From Tahibacter soli (GTDB taxonomy: Bacteria; Pseudomonadota; Gammaproteobacteria; Xanthomonadales; Rhodanobacteraceae), in the NCBI RefSeq assembly GCF_025717065.2, contig NZ_JAOVZO020000019.1, positions 62,001-126,000 of the forward strand: DNA of 64,000 nt, read 5' to 3'. The translations under genes and the position numbers were made by a program. The notes beneath the pieces are model-generated. The model was not told the origin of the DNA and made no database searches. It saw only the letters and a list, made by a program, of their open reading frames with translations. Shown one piece after another: positions 31,126 to 38,108 of this stretch; the first letter of the stretch is position 1; each line of letters begins with the position of its first letter.

Positions 31126-32418
31126 TCAGCGCTTTTCGACGTCGACGTAGTCGCGCGTCGGCGCGCCGGTGTAGATCTGGCGCGGACGGCCGATCTTGGC
31201 ATCCGGCGTTTCGTGCTGCTCGAGCCAGTGCGCGACCCAGCCGGCGGTGCGCGCGATCGCGAACATCACGGTGAACATCTCGGTCGGGATGCCGAGCGCC
31301 TTGTAGATGATGCCCGAGTAGAAGTCGACGTTCGGGTACAGCTTGCGCTCGACGAAGTACGAATCCTTGAGCGCGGCGGCTTCCAGTTCCATCGCGACGT
31401 CGAGCATCGGATCGGACACGTTCAGATCGGCGAGCACCTTGTGGCACATCTCGCGGATGATCGTCGCGCGCGGATCGAAGTTCTTGTAGACGCGGTGGCC
31501 GAAGCCCATCAGGCGGAAGCCGGAGTTCTTGTCCTTGGCGCGCTCGACGGCCTTGCCGACGTTCTTCGCGTCGCCGATCTCGGCGAGCATCTTGAGCACC
31601 GCCTCGTTCGCGCCGCCGTGCGCGGGCCCCCACAGCGCGGCGATGCCGGCCGCGACGCACGCATACGGATTCGCGCCGGTCGAGCCGACCAGGCGAACGG
31701 TCGACGTCGACGCGTTCTGCTCGTGGTCGGCGTGCAGGATGAAGAGGAGGTCCAGCGCCTTGGCCGCGACCGGCGACAGCTGCAGCGGCTCCGACGGCAC
31801 CTCGAACATCATGTGCAGGAAGCGCGTGCAGTATTCGAGGTTGTTGCGCGGATAGCGGATCGGCCAGCCGATCGAATAGCGGTACGCGGCCGCGGCGATC
31901 GTCGGCATCTTCGCGATCAGGCGGATCGCGGCGAGCTTGCGCTGCGCCGGGTCGTTGATGTCGAGCGAGTCGTGATAGAACGCGGCGAGCGAACCGACCG
32001 CGGCCATCGACATCGCCATCGGATGCGCGTCGTAGTGAAAACCCTGGAAGAAGTTCTTGAGCGACTCGCGCATCATGGTGTGATGCGTCACGTCGTGCTC
32101 GAACGTCTGGAACTGCGCGGCGCTGGGCAGTTCGCCGTTGATCAGGAGATACGCGACTTCGAGAAAGTTCGACTGCTTGGCGAGCTGTTCGATCGGATAG
32201 CCGCGATACAGCAGAACGCCCTGGTCGCCGTCGATGAACGTGACCGCGCTCTTGGTCGCGGCGGTCGACATGAAGCCCGGGTCGTAGGTGAAGTAACCGG
32301 TGTCTTTATTGAGCTTGCCGATGTCGAAAGCGGGATCGCCCATGGTTCCCGACACGACCGGCAGCGTGGCCGAACGGTTGGTCGAAGCATCGGTAATGAC
32401 TACGGTCTTATCGGACAC
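31126..32418 (-). CDS. gltA: Citrate synthase (type II)
   Basis: The 430-aa enzyme condenses oxaloacetate and acetyl-CoA at entry to the TCA cycle. Catalytic residues lie in [11 protein letters not shown] (first His), [13 protein letters not shown] (second His) and NVDFYSG (Asp). The N-terminal beta domain ([20 protein letters not shown]) marks the hexameric, NADH-sensitive type of gram-negative bacteria. A GTG at 32418 is chosen as start because AGGAG lies 7 nt upstream and the protein then begins VSDKTVVIT; the ATG at 32538 would add 40 unlikely residues. Confidence 0.96.
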
Positions 32419-32512
32419 GACTGACTCCTGTGTTCTCCGGGCGCCCTGGCCCCGGTTGCATGGTGGCGAAAGCGACCGCCAAGACGCGGCAAAGCTTTCG
32501 ATGCGACGCACA

Positions 32513-32521
32513 ATTATCGCA
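32513..32521 (-). promoter_or_regulatory. Extended -10 promoter candidate for gltA
   Basis: The minus strand reads TGCGATAAT about 95 bp before the gltA GTG, an extended -10 box in an otherwise GC-rich stretch. No good -35 hexamer stands at 17 bases. The rest of the 290-bp gap before rpmE2 shows only the rpmE2 terminator hairpin. Confidence 0.35.
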
Positions 32522-32634
32522 CACGCGTTTGAATCCAACAGCGCGCCGGCTGCGACTTTGGTCCAGTCCGCGCCCGCGGTTTCATGACAGGATTTTCAAG
32601 GACGCAGATTTCACGACGCGAACGCCGCAAACGC

Positions 32635-32708: not shown

Positions 32709-32957
32709 TTACTTCTTCGTCGCGTAGCGACGGTTGAACTTGTCGACGCGACCGCCGGCGTCGATGATCTTGTGCTTGCCCGTGTAGAACGGATGCGAAG
32801 CGCTCGAGATATCGATCTTGATCAGCGGATATTCCTGACCGTCTTCCCACTTGATCTTTTCTTTGCTGGTCATCGTGGAACGCGTCAGGAACGAGAAATC
32901 GGTGGTCACATCCTGAAACACCACCGGGTTGTACTTCGGATGAATGTCGGCCTTCAT
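32709..32957 (-). CDS. rpmE2: 50S ribosomal protein L31 type B
   Basis: The 82-aa protein begins [16 protein letters not shown] and ends in [20 protein letters not shown], the pattern of L31. It lacks the CxxC zinc ligands of type A L31, so it is the zinc-independent form, which in many bacteria is induced on zinc starvation by Zur. I did not see a convincing Zur box in the short upstream region. GGAG lies 6 nt before the ATG at 32957. It is divergent from the mechanosensitive channel gene. Confidence 0.95.
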
Positions 32958-33087
32958 GGTGGGCTCCGGAAAGAAAGTCGGGCGGCAAAGAGCGGTATGG
33001 TATCGTCCTTGAGTCCCGCGGCGCAAGTTCATGCCACGTTCCGCGTCCAGGCCCGATCGTAGCCTCTCTCCCAAGTCATTGATTAGC

Positions 33088-36000
33088 ATGCTCGACTGGA
33101 TTCGACCGCTGCTCTTTGCCGTGCTCGCCCTCGCCGCCCAGCCGGGTCGCGCGCAGCCGCCGACCGACCTCGAACTGTGGCGCCGGGCGCACCCGGAAAT
33201 CCGCATCGCGCCCGACCCCGACTTCGCGCCGATCGATTCGCTCGATGCGAAGAACCAGCAACAGGGGCTCGCCGCCGACTATCTCAAGCTGATCGGCCAG
33301 CGCACCGGACTGAAGTTTCGCGTCGTGCCGGTCGGCAGCTGGTCCGAAGCCATGGAAGCGCTGCGCGAACGCCGCGTCGACATGCTGTCGGCCGCGTTCG
33401 CGTCGAAGGCGCGCGAGGAGTTTGCGCTTTTCACCGCGCCGTACCTGCGTCTGCCTTGCGCGGTGTTCGTGCGCGCCGACTCCGGCCTCAAGCTCGACCA
33501 GATCGACGGCCGCAGCATCGGCGTCGCGCTCGAGCACGTCTGCCAGGAAGACCTCGCGCCGCTCGCGCGCAAGGCGCAGATCACGGCGCTGCGCAACTCG
33601 ACCGAGGCCTTGAAGGCACTCGTCGACGGCAAGGTCGACGCGCTCGCCGGCGACCTCGTGACGCTGCAGGCCGCGGCGAACCGTCTGGGCGTGCGCGACC
33701 GGCTCAGCATCGCGGGGCAGATCGGCGCCGACGGTCCGCTGAGCTTCGCCGTGCGCAAGGACTGGCCGCAGTTGAAACAGATCCTCGACGAGGCGCTCGC
33801 CGGCATCGACGTCGACGACGAGGCACAGCTGCGCCAGCGCTGGCTCAAGGACCTGCTGCCGAACGACCCCGCGAAAGACGCGCAGACGTCCACATCCGAC
33901 GACGCGCTGCCGCCGGGCCTGGCGCCGGCGCTGGAAGCGGCGCGCAAGGCGCTGGCCGAACAAAAGTCGCTGGCGGCCGACGACGTGCGCGCGGCAACCG
34001 AGGCGCTCGACGCGGCCGACGCCGACGAACGCAAATCCGAGGCGCTGCTGGTCGAGCGCCAAGCGCTGCGCGACGCCGCCGCCAAGGCCGCCACCGACAA
34101 CGCCGCGCTCGACCAGGCGCTCGCGCGCGACGACACGGCGGCGCTCCTGACCTGGCGCGCAAGCCTGCCCGAGCGTGCGAGCGTCGAGCAGCTGGAAGGG
34201 CTGCTCGGTCGCGAACGCGCGGCGCTCGCCGACGCCCGCGCGGCCGTGAATACACTGCAGTCCGACGCCGCGCGGCAGCTCGAACGGCCGGCGCAGATTC
34301 GCAAGGAACTGAAGAACGCACAGGCGCAGATCGCGGCGCCCGCCGATGCGGACAAGGCCGCCGACAAGACGGCCGGCGTCGTCGCCGATGCGAAGCGGCT
34401 GCAGCACGAGGCGGCGCGGCGTCTGGCTCAGATCACCGTGGCCAAGCTCGAAGACGAGTTGCGCAGCTACGAGCCGCGCCTGCGCCTGGCTTCGGCGCAA
34501 TTGCGCGAGAACCAGCGCGAGGCGGCGCAGCGGCAACAGAAGGTCGATGCGCTGCAGAACCTCATCCTCGACCGCAACACCGCCGTTGCGAGCGCGATCA
34601 ACGAGCGCATGCGCAAGGAGGCCGACGCGTTCGCGCCGGCCGGCCCGGCGCTGGCCGCCCCCGCCCGGCAGAACGTCGCCTACGCCGACGAGCTGAGCCG
34701 GGCCACGCGGCGCCTCGCCGAAATCCGCGTGCTGCGCGAGGACTATGCGAAGAACCGCATCGCGACCGAACAGGCGCTCAAGAACACGAAAGAACGCGTC
34801 GACATCGGCGGCGTCACCGAGGCGGTCGGCCTCATCCTTCTGGCCGAACGCGAAAAGCTGCAGCCGGCCGCGGCGCTCAAGCGCAAGCTCGCCGCACTGC
34901 AGACCGAACTGGCGCAGGCGAAGATCCGCCTGATCGACCTGCGCGAACTCGGCACGTCGCTCGACGACCCGGCCGCGCGCGTCGACGAGCAGGTCAAGCT
35001 GCTGCCGCCCGGCACCGAGAACACCACGGCGCTGCGCCAGTCGCTGTTTCGCGTGTTCGGCGCGCGCGCCGAAGTCGTCGCGCAGCTCTCGCTCGCGCAG
35101 CGCTCGCTCGCCGACGCGCTCGCCGACACCGAGCAGGAACTCAAAAGCCTGACCGACGCGAGCGCCGCGCTGCGCGACCTGCTCGACGCGCATCTGCTGT
35201 GGACCCCGAGCCACGGGCCGGTCGACCGCAACTGGCCGCTCGCGATCGCGTCCGGCGCGCTCGACGCGTTCCGGCCCGATCGCTGGTGGGACGCGGCGAA
35301 GCTCGCGGTCAACCTCGCCGTCGGGCGGCCGGCATCGACGCTCGCCGGCCTCGCGCTCGTCGTCGCGCTGCTGCTGTACCGGCGACGCATACCCGCGAAG
35401 CTCGACGCGATCGCAACACCGATGCGGCGCATCCGCACCGACCGCTACCGGCTGTCGGGCGAGGCGTTCGCGCTGAGCCTCGTCGCCACGCTGCCGTTGC
35501 CGCTCGCGGTATGGCTGGGCTCGCGCCTGCTGCAGCGCGCCGGGGACGCCGGCTACGTGTTCAGCGACGCGCTCGGCCTCACGCTCGGCCAGATGGTGCC
35601 GACGGTCGCGATGCTGTCGTTCATGCGCTGGCTGACCGCTGACAAGGGCCTCGCAGCGACACACTTCCGCTGGAACCCGAGCCGGCGCCAGGCCCTCGAC
35701 ACGATTCGCCGCTGGCTCACGTTCGGGCTCGTGCCGGCGATGTTCCTGCTGCTGATGTACTTCAACTACGGCGAGCAGTTCGCCAACGCGGGCTTCGCTC
35801 GCGCCGTCCTCATCGTCGGCTGCCTGCTGCTCGCGCGGCTCGTCTGGCAGGTGATGGCGCCGGGCGTGCTGTGGTCGTCGCGCACGCTCGAACCGGTACG
35901 CACGCGACAGCTGCTGCGCATCGGCCTGACCGGCGCGGTGCTCGGCCTCGTCATGCTCGCGCTTGCGGGCTACCTGCTGACCGCGGTCACGCTCGCCGGC

Positions 36001-37188
36001 CGACTCGTCGAATCGGGCAGCGCGTTCCTCGCGCTCGCGACGTTGAACGGCATGGCGCTGCGCTGGCTGTCGCTCGGCGAGCGGCGCCTCGCGCTCAAGC
36101 GCATGGAAGAAAAGCGCGAGGCCGACGGTGCGCGCGACGACGCCGAACTCGAAACACGGCCGGAGTTCGTCGCCGAGGCCGAGCAGATCACGCTCGCAAG
36201 CATCAACCAGCAGACGCGGCGGCTCTTGCGCGCGCTGACGACGGTCGTGCTCGCGGCGACGCTGTTGTGGGTCTGGTCCGACGTGACGCCGGCGCTGTCG
36301 TACCTCGGCAACATCGACGCGTGGAAATCGAGCTACACCGCCGACGGCAAGGCCGTGGAGGTGACCGTCAACCTGCGCTCGCTGCTGTTCGCCGTCGTCG
36401 CGCTGATGCTGACCTGGGTCGCCACGCGCAACCTGCCGGGCCTGCTGGAAATCGGCGTGCTGCGGCGCCTCAACGTCGACGCGCCGACGCGCTACGCGAT
36501 CACCGCGATTTCGCGCTACGCGATCGCGATCTTCGGCACCGTGTTCGGCCTGTCGCTGTTCGGCCTGCGCTGGGGCCAGCTGCAGTGGATGGCCGCGGCA
36601 CTGACGGTCGGCCTCGGCTTCGGCCTGCAGGAAATTTTCGCGAACTTCGTGTCGGGTCTGATCGTGCTGTTCGAACGGCCGATCCGCGTCGGCGACGTCA
36701 TCTCGATCGGCGGCATCGAGGGTACGGTCACGCGCATCCGCACGCGCGCGACCACCGTCGTCGACTGGGACAACCGCGAGGTGGTGATCCCGAACAAGAC
36801 GTTCATCACGAGCCAGCTGACGAACTGGACGCTCACCGACGCCGTCACGCGCGTCGTGATCAAGCTCGGCGTCGCCTACGACAGCGATCCGGAAGCCGTG
36901 CGCGCGCTGCTGCTCGACGTCGCGCGGGCGCATCCGAAGGTGCTCAAGGAACCCGGCCCGAACTGCTGGTGCGTGGCGCTCGCCGATTCGACGCTGAACT
37001 TCGAGCTGCGCGTATTCGTCGGCGACACGCTCGAGCGCAACGGCGTGCGCAACGACCTGCACGGAACGATCCTGCGCGAGTTCCGCGCGCGCAAGATCGA
37101 GATCGCGTTTCCGCAGATGGACGTGTGGGTGCGCGCCGCGCCGGCATTGCCGGCGGCGGACGCGCCGAAGCCGGAAGCCGCGTCCTAA
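33088..37188 (+). CDS. MscS/MscK-type mechanosensitive channel fused to a periplasmic solute-binding domain
   Basis: The 1366-aa protein begins with a signal peptide (cleavage near GRA, residue 22). Residues 27-257 look like a bacterial solute-binding protein family 3 domain: [41 protein letters not shown], then MLSAAF-type and [11 protein letters not shown] strands. A long coiled coil (about 280-700) like the periplasmic region of MscK/MscM follows, then about ten membrane helices (about 745-1165). The MscS core has pore helix [20 protein letters not shown], then [19 protein letters not shown] and a beta/alpha vestibule. The ATG at 33088 is chosen because it starts the signal peptide; a frame from 33031 also exists. 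The ligand is unknown. Confidence 0.88.
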
Positions 37189-38108
37189 GCCGCGCCGAGC
37201 GCCTGCGCGATCATCGCGGCGAAGCGCGCGTGATCGACGTCGAGCACGATGCGCGCGTTCGGCGCCTTGCCGCCGCGGCGATCCCAGTCGACGATGGTCG
37301 CGCCGCGCGTCAGCGCGCCGTTCAGTTCGACGGAGACGTGGCGCTCCTCGGCGCGCACGACGATGCCGGGATCGAGCACCACCGCCATCGCGAGCGCGTC
37401 CGCGGCGATCAGGCCCGGGCGTTCGCGCTCCTTGTTGAAGGCGCGCGTCTTTTTCGAGATCGCGCCGTAGAACGTCGCCCGCTTGTCGCCCGACGCGAAC
37501 CAGCGTTCGGCCTGGTCGAAATCGAGCGCGTGGCGCACCGTGGCTTCCCAGTCGACGAGTTCGAACATCGGCCAGCTCGAAAACACGACGTGCGCGGCTT
37601 CCGGATCGAAGCCGATGTTGAACTCGGCGCTGACCGACGTGTTGCCGCGACCGGTCACCGCGCCGCCCATCACGACGAGGCGCGCGATGCGCGACGGCAG
37701 GTCGGGATCGAGCCGCAGCGCGAGCGCGAGATTCGTCAGCGGCCCGAGCGCAACGAGCGTCAGCTCGCCCGGATGCGCGCGCGCCAGGCGCACGAGCGCG
37801 AGCGCCGCGTGCTCGTCGGCGGCGGCGCGGTGCGCCGGCGCGATCCCCGCGTCGCCGAAGCCATCCATGCCGTGCACGTGCGCGGCGTCTTCGGCCGGCA
37901 GCACGAGCGGCACGGGGCAACCCGGATAGACGGGCGTGTCGGCACCGACGAGTTCCGTCAGCTTCAGCGCGTTCGCGACGGTGTGCGCGAGGCCCACGTT
38001 GCCGGCCGTGATCGACAATGCCTCGATGCGCGAATGCCGGTAAGCCATCAGAATCGCGAGCGCGTCGTCGACGCCGGGGTCGGTGTCGATCAGGAGTCGT
38101 TGGGTCAT
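37185..38108 (-). CDS. Inosine-uridine-type nucleoside hydrolase
   Basis: The 307-aa enzyme hydrolyses ribonucleosides to base and ribose. The calcium-binding DTDPGVDDALA cluster is at residues 8-18, and VVMGGAVTGRGNTSVSAEFNIGFDPEAA (ligands Asn, Glu and Asp of the ribose site) lies in the middle. This is the IunH/Rih family pattern; base specificity cannot be set from sequence. Cytoplasmic, no signal peptide. It converges on the channel gene, the two stops overlapping by 4 bp. Upstream 38109-38232 is AT-rich for this genome and shared with the divergent secreted protein gene. Confidence 0.9.
   Translation of the reverse strand: MTQRLLIDTDPGVDDALAILMAYRHSRIEALSITAGNVGLAHTVANALKLTELVGADTPVYPGCPVPLVLPAEDAAHVHGMDGFGDAGIAPAHRAAADEHAALALVRLARAHPGELTLVALGPLTNLALALRLDPDLPSRIARLVVMGGAVTGRGNTSVSAEFNIGFDPEAAHVVFSSWPMFELVDWEATVRHALDFDQAERWFASGDKRATFYGAISKKTRAFNKERERPGLIAADALAMAVVLDPGIVVRAEERHVSVELNGALTRGATIVDWDRRGGKAPNARIVLDVDHARFAAMIAQALGAA

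Follow-up and report, generated by a model that had tools for sequence, protein, structure and literature searches.

A Venus-flytrap solute-binding domain at the N-terminus of an MscK-type mechanosensitive channel in Tahibacter

Can chemistry outside the cell set the pressure at which an osmotic valve opens? The question is raised by one gene in the 64,000-nucleotide stretch of Tahibacter soli analysed here (contig NZ_JAOVZO020000019.1, positions 62,001 to 126,000; hereafter the window), which encodes an MscK-type channel with an N-terminal solute-binding domain. Mechanosensitive channels are mostly treated as physical safety valves; the one described here has a conserved domain of ligand-binding type. 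The frame at 33088-37188 on the forward strand is uninterrupted and codes for a single chain of 1366 residues (P0001), in which a signal peptide, an SBP_bac_3 (Venus-flytrap) domain, a disordered tether, a periplasmic helical region of ~420 residues and an MscK-type channel follow one another from N- to C-terminus. The initial annotation, made from the sequence alone, had read a signal peptide, solute-binding domain, coil, membrane helices and MscS core in one chain of this length, and both Pfam and the frame agree. SBP_bac_3 matched residues 38-254 (E = 5.8e-22; 78.3 bits, where the gathering score is 26.4), MscS_porin (PF12795) residues 285-507 (5e-09, slightly above its cut-off) and MscS_TM residues 752-1079 (2.6e-71, above its cut-off). 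MS_channel_2nd (the MscS beta domain; 1183-1248) and MS_channel_3rd (the C-terminal domain; 1256-1339) both scored above their cut-offs, and MS_channel_1st (1141-1181) under its own. In alignment, E. coli MscK residue 35 pairs with P0001 residue 271; the solute-binding domain therefore sits between signal peptide and coil. An assembly join of two genes was ruled out because all eight Tahibacter genomes, one of them a one-contig assembly, encode the full-length fusion.

An AlphaFold2 model of residues 27-285 has a two-lobed Venus-flytrap fold with a mean predicted local distance difference test (pLDDT) of 91.3; block values are 91-98 across the solute-binding domain and confidence is low at the linker. 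Together with the match above the gathering score, this excludes that residues 27-257 lack a solute-binding fold. Searched with Foldseek, the domain model found as its top PDB match 7ejg, titled the periplasmic binding protein (PBP) domain of RmcA (E = 6.9e-25; template-modelling (TM) score 0.81/0.88), followed by the second Venus-flytrap domain (VFT2) of BvgS (1.0e-23); below these come ancestral arginine-binding proteins, the flytrap of a sensor kinase and further proteins that bind amino acids. The RmcA domain recognises L-arginine (PMC9028604, PMC8846402). By sequence too, BvgS and 7ejg are the closest solved structures to the N-terminal domain. Compared with arginine-binding proteins, the model resembles a holo structure (6q3u, TMq 0.68) more than the apo forms (4prs_A, 0.45; 6ggp, 0.44).

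In an alignment that includes E. coli HisJ and ArgT, R109 falls opposite HisJ R77 and D189 opposite HisJ D161, two residues that we take to be the anchors of an alpha-amino acid, the other HisJ positions compared presumably being further ligand contacts. By this anchor pair P0001 falls with the alpha-amino-acid type of SBP_bac_3 domain. Both residues are present in all eight Tahibacter fusions. In HMMER alignments RmcA and BvgS VFT1 also keep both, and BvgS VFT2 keeps the R and has T opposite D189. Of six relatives of the domain that lack a channel part, the four in the pocket alignment (L043-L046; L047 and L049 are outside it) all keep the R and none has the D. Pfam, Foldseek and the two anchors thus bear out the earlier proposal of an amino-acid-type binding domain on an MscK-type channel.

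To the channel part, the closest solved structure by sequence is E. coli MscK. The NCBIfam MscK model covers residues 286-1350 but, at 623.4 bits, stays under its equivalog cut-off of 991, so that P0001 is filed as MscK-type only; it has the MscS_TM domain and the MscS beta and C-terminal domains of that type. Aligned with MscK, P0001 has identical residues at the pore positions W914, V921, G924, F925 and G926. The hydrophobic gates W914/V921/F925 correspond to W1167/V1174/F1178 and are identical in 16 of the 17 fusions described below, the remaining row (L039) ending before them. Where "about ten" membrane helices were first counted, a hydropathy scan and the E. coli MscK alignment are compatible with eleven, although the eleventh transmembrane helix (TM11) falls in two hydropathy windows. 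According to PMC9653487, E. coli MscK requires periplasmic K+ plus tension to open, and its periplasmic ring, resolved in its C-terminal portion, widens from 154 to 178 Å upon opening; chemical control of an MscK channel thus has a precedent. In P0001 the flytrap is attached N-terminal to the MscK-like periplasmic region. The initial annotation had described MscK channels as lacking a substrate-binding domain, which is right for E. coli MscK and for most MscK-type relatives listed, and wrong for this lineage. The fusion is the sole PF00924 match (E 0.001) in the window's genome and in four of the eight Tahibacter genomes overall (G000, G001, G003, which is 87% complete, and G006), and all eight have one MscL; the fusion may therefore be a main MscS-type valve in Tahibacter.

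As to how widespread the architecture is, we found 17 distinct fusions, with conservation throughout Tahibacter (8/8). The others lie in five genomes of the same order (G093, G842, G848, G854, G860), one of another order (G438) and three metagenome-assembled genomes (MAGs), two of which are Rudaea; the third (L037) is unplaced and groups with Rudaea in both the channel and the solute-binding trees. At least nine of 99 genomes (the window's own and its relatives) carry the fusion, namely the eight Tahibacter and G093. In the class sample (369 genomes), 41 genomes matched at 1e-100 in 43 places, three of which covered the solute-binding domain (two Tahibacter and G438), coverage being counted when the match started before query residue 40. 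The phylum sample (398 genomes; 50 matching in 56 places) held two fusions, both from Tahibacter, and the order sample (200 genomes; 20 matching in 21 places) held seven: two Tahibacter, G093, G842, G848, G854 and G860. These samples overlap, scoring covered the top few candidates in each genome, and shared genomes are counted once in the total of 17. A contig scan with two peptide patterns, which can miss distant fusions, returned 19 loci; ten contain the whole fusion in one frame, six have frames matching P0001 over the solute-binding domain alone, and the rest are cut by a contig end (L039), broken in frame (L041) or a frame of 99 residues (L050). In the long frames L053, L072 and G292:C162 no hidden solute-binding domain was seen by eye: the signal peptide directly precedes the coil and there was no match to the domain. 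The L041 copy, from a Rudaea MAG, is split into frames of 919 and 511 residues near P0001 residues 861-866, and may be a pseudogene or an assembly error.

The seven other Tahibacter fusions are 61-64% identical to that of the window. Within the genus (28 pairs; L039 and L041 are left out of all regional identities) mean identity is 73.1% in the solute-binding domain, 43.6% in the linker (256-284), 67.3 and 71.2% in the two halves of the coil, 70.0% in residues 745-1010 and 83.9% in residues 1141-1345. When the window's fusion is compared with seven from other genera, mean identity is 40.0% for the solute-binding domain, 30.5% for TM1-6 (745-1010), and 28.1 and 28.2% for the two coil halves. 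The solute-binding domain is under purifying selection. Its ratios of nonsynonymous to synonymous substitution (dN/dS; Nei-Gojobori, four chosen pairs of the 28, in one of which dS exceeds 1) are 0.058, 0.092, 0.251 and 0.110, lower than those of the coil in 4/4 pairs and of the channel core in 3/4.

Between flytrap and membrane, a second AlphaFold2 model (residues 27-765; mean pLDDT 83.4) gives the solute-binding domain, the disordered tether and then helices over residues ~279-703, a region almost entirely helical. The best 50 Foldseek matches listed for this longer model all fell on the solute-binding part, which makes the search uninformative about the coil.

We tentatively propose, as somewhat short of probable, that P0001 is a ligand- and tension-gated variant of MscK, in which the flytrap closes on a periplasmic ligand and shifts the opening tension. 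Each subunit of the periplasmic gating ring would carry one tethered flytrap, seven in all if the channel is a heptamer like MscK. The ligand on which the flytrap would close is expected to be a small periplasmic molecule, an alpha-amino acid being the likeliest class; closure would expose or hide a ring-binding surface, so that the flytrap docks on or off the helical ring. Docking might then alter the stability of the ring and hence the tension threshold of the valve, in either direction.

Several observations weigh against this proposal. The tether of ~20 residues is disordered in both models (block-mean pLDDT 35-61), and the flytrap does not stand on a helical linker as in BvgS-type sensors; direct mechanical transmission through a disordered, variable tether cannot be assumed, which argues against rigid helix coupling and makes a docking switch likelier than a lever. 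Both models are of monomers and were built from shallow alignments (19 rows for 27-285, 13 for 27-765). Structure predictions of this kind may favour closed domains, and the closeness to the holo form may be merely method bias. In the pocket, R109 is kept in 14 of the 17 fusions and falls in a gap in three Rudaea-type ones, while D189 is D in 15, E in G860 and N in G438. Only four of 13 compared HisJ positions are identical in P0001 (D11, S69, R77, D161), the changes including S72 to F104, G119 to E149, T120 to H150 and Q122 to C152. With the anchors kept and most HisJ contacts altered, an alpha-amino acid is no more than plausible as the ligand class. Lastly, the solute-binding domain is absent from orthologues that some relatives carry at this locus.

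Some of these observations would fit other roles. The domain might bind no free ligand in vivo and serve as a tethered adaptor that keeps the channel close to peptidoglycan or to some partner in the periplasm, an explanation that we regard as unlikely but worth keeping in view. The disorder of the tether, the loss of R109 in three Rudaea-type fusions and the change of most other HisJ contact positions agree with it, as does BvgS VFT2, a close relative that is closed without ligand according to PMC4352136; however, both anchors persist in 8/8 Tahibacter, whereas the D is missing from all four aligned relatives without a channel. Tahibacter also has a feature of its own. C124 and C152 are the sole periplasmic cysteines in all eight of its fusions, cysteine is absent at both positions in the nine fusions from elsewhere, and H150 is likewise present in 8/8. 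HisJ Q122, opposite C152, we take to be a cleft position, and the arrangement suggests that a disulfide or a thiol site lies close to the cleft; with H150, a metal site is a further candidate. From this one could argue that the domain in Tahibacter senses redox state, thiols or metals, switched by a disulfide or metal site at the cleft, which we consider improbable: the two cysteines may simply form a structural disulfide, and they are not conserved outside Tahibacter.

Placed on a tether ahead of a channel that releases solutes, the domain might also catch released amino acids at the channel mouth for re-uptake, with no part in gating. The solute-binding proteins of ABC transporters have the same fold, but the immediate neighbours, as provisionally named here, are not transporter genes and the closest relatives of the domain are sensor domains, so that this role seems very unlikely. 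We give the least credence to a passenger domain of little function on an ordinary MscK; the same-locus orthologues without the domain would suit it, but purifying selection in 4/4 pairs and retention in 8/8 Tahibacter genomes speak against it.

The flanking genes, provisionally named gltA, rpmE2 and a nucleoside hydrolase gene, tie fused and unfused channels to one locus (Table 1). As in the window, gltA-rpmE2 precedes and the nucleoside hydrolase gene follows the fusion in all seven other Tahibacter genomes. L041 has the same order, and L039 has the upstream pair, its contig ending within the gene. An MscK without the solute-binding domain is flanked by the same neighbours in G022 (gltA, rpmE2), G015 (rpmE2, hydrolase), G038 (hydrolase) and G874 (all three); in the f3 genomes G071 and G080 the hydrolase gene alone lies beside such an MscK, and in G060 and G899 none of these genes does. 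The fusions L040, L042, L048, L090, L092 and L093 have none of them in the flanking DNA examined, nor does L037 on its short contig. The shared neighbours indicate orthologues with and without the domain at a single locus. Such natural orthologues are a ready pair with which to ask whether outside chemistry sets release pressure.

The channel part rejects a single clade of all fusions (approximately unbiased test, p = 5.8e-51; 2.5e-19 without G438), though the solute-binding part does not (p = 0.117; 0.429 without G438), and so both early gain with several losses and repeated gain are possible. A clade of Tahibacter and Rudaea-type channels is borderline (p = 0.0516). The groups tested were named by fusion state, some after the first tree had been seen; L039 was left out of the channel tests, the channel trees held 27 chosen MscK-type relatives without the domain rather than all, and the solute-binding tree has long-branch warnings, G860 among them. 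We favour one early gain in the Lysobacterales followed by losses. The solute-binding domain of G438 groups with L043-L045, proteins without a channel part (support 95/94), and its fusion may be a separate gain, a single origin not being rejected. It is conceivable, although doubtful, that flytrap-controlled MscS channels form a distinct class of osmotic valve, jointly gated by tension and a periplasmic amino-acid-like ligand, possibly arisen twice (in the Lysobacterales and separately in G438), and an MscS-pore counterpart of glutamate-gated channels. In G438 a flytrap-fused channel occurs alongside another of MscK type, the match of which begins past the flytrap (G438:C34, G438:C92), a within-cell comparison.

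Table 1. Position of the channel gene, its parts and its neighbours in the window.
Feature	Coordinates	Strand	Basis
Whole gene, MscK-type channel with N-terminal solute-binding domain, 1366 aa	33088..37188	+	Open reading frame and translation, Pfam, NCBIfam
Signal peptide, residues 1-22, cleavage after G-R-A	33088..33153	+	By eye
SBP_bac_3 / Venus-flytrap domain, residues 27-257	33166..33858	+	Pfam; AlphaFold2 pLDDT; Foldseek
R109, equivalent of HisJ R77	33412..33414	+	Alignment; 8/8 Tahibacter, 14/17 fusions
C124, first Cys of the Tahibacter-only pair	33457..33459	+	Fusion alignment
C152, second Cys of the pair, aligned with HisJ Q122	33541..33543	+	Fusion alignment
D189, equivalent of HisJ D161	33652..33654	+	Alignment; 8/8 Tahibacter, 15/17 fusions
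Variable disordered tether, residues 258-278	33859..33921	+	pLDDT; within-genus identity
Periplasmic helical region (MscK gating-ring region), residues 279-702	33922..35193	+	AlphaFold2 secondary structure; PF12795 MscS_porin
Membrane helices 1-10, residues 745-1158	35320..36561	+	MscS_TM; hydropathy and MscK alignment
Pore helix TM11, beta domain and C-terminal MscS core, residues 1159-1345	36562..37122	+	PF00924, PF21082; MscK pore residues kept
gltA-like citrate synthase, upstream	31126..32538	-	Frame; name provisional; conserved neighbour
rpmE2-like gene (ribosomal protein L31 type B), divergent upstream neighbour	32709..32957	-	Frame; name provisional; conserved neighbour
Nucleoside hydrolase-like gene, convergent	37185..38108	-	Frame; name provisional; conserved neighbour

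The channel gene and the convergent hydrolase-like gene share four bases at their stops (37185-37188). Opposite the whole channel gene runs an open frame of 1614 residues (33076-37920, reverse strand), probably an effect of GC-rich codon use. A promoter scan upstream of the channel gene gave no sites. Among the relatives of the solute-binding domain, L104 (G064) is a frame of 886 residues with, by eye, a second binding domain ahead and a GGDEF-like C-terminus.

Among the literature matches listed, from open-licence PMC articles, neither a fusion of a solute-binding domain to an MscS channel nor a periplasmic flytrap on an MscK-type channel was described; domain databases, which may include the architecture, were not searched for it. 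Flytraps on channels of other pore families are already known, as are ligand domains on MscS pores: bCNG channels join an MscS pore to a ligand domain, but their cyclic-nucleotide domain is cytoplasmic and C-terminal. Ionotropic glutamate receptors of the GluR0 type, with a flytrap domain on an ion channel, are alike in principle. Their pore is inserted within the flytrap (PMC549065), whereas in P0001 the flytrap (38-254) is contiguous and N-terminal and the pore helix, near 1167-1185, belongs to an unrelated MscS pore. The same paper describes bacterial pentameric channels with PBP-I fusions, which like P0001 have an N-terminal periplasmic binding domain on a channel, but of another PBP class and on a Cys-loop-type channel (PMC549065). 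The PBP domain of RmcA (7ejg) is the closest solved fold and keeps the aligned R and D; as reported for RmcA, it drives a cyclic di-GMP enzyme and not a channel. The sensor kinases BvgS and EvgS have the same kind of periplasmic flytrap, with both aligned anchors in BvgS VFT1, but differ in the T of BvgS VFT2 at D189 and in their kinase output and helical linkers (PMC5829827). Closest in its channel is E. coli MscK (PDB 7uw5, 7ux1), which shares with P0001 the periplasmic helices, a membrane part compatible with eleven helices, the MscS core and the pore residues, but has no solute-binding domain.

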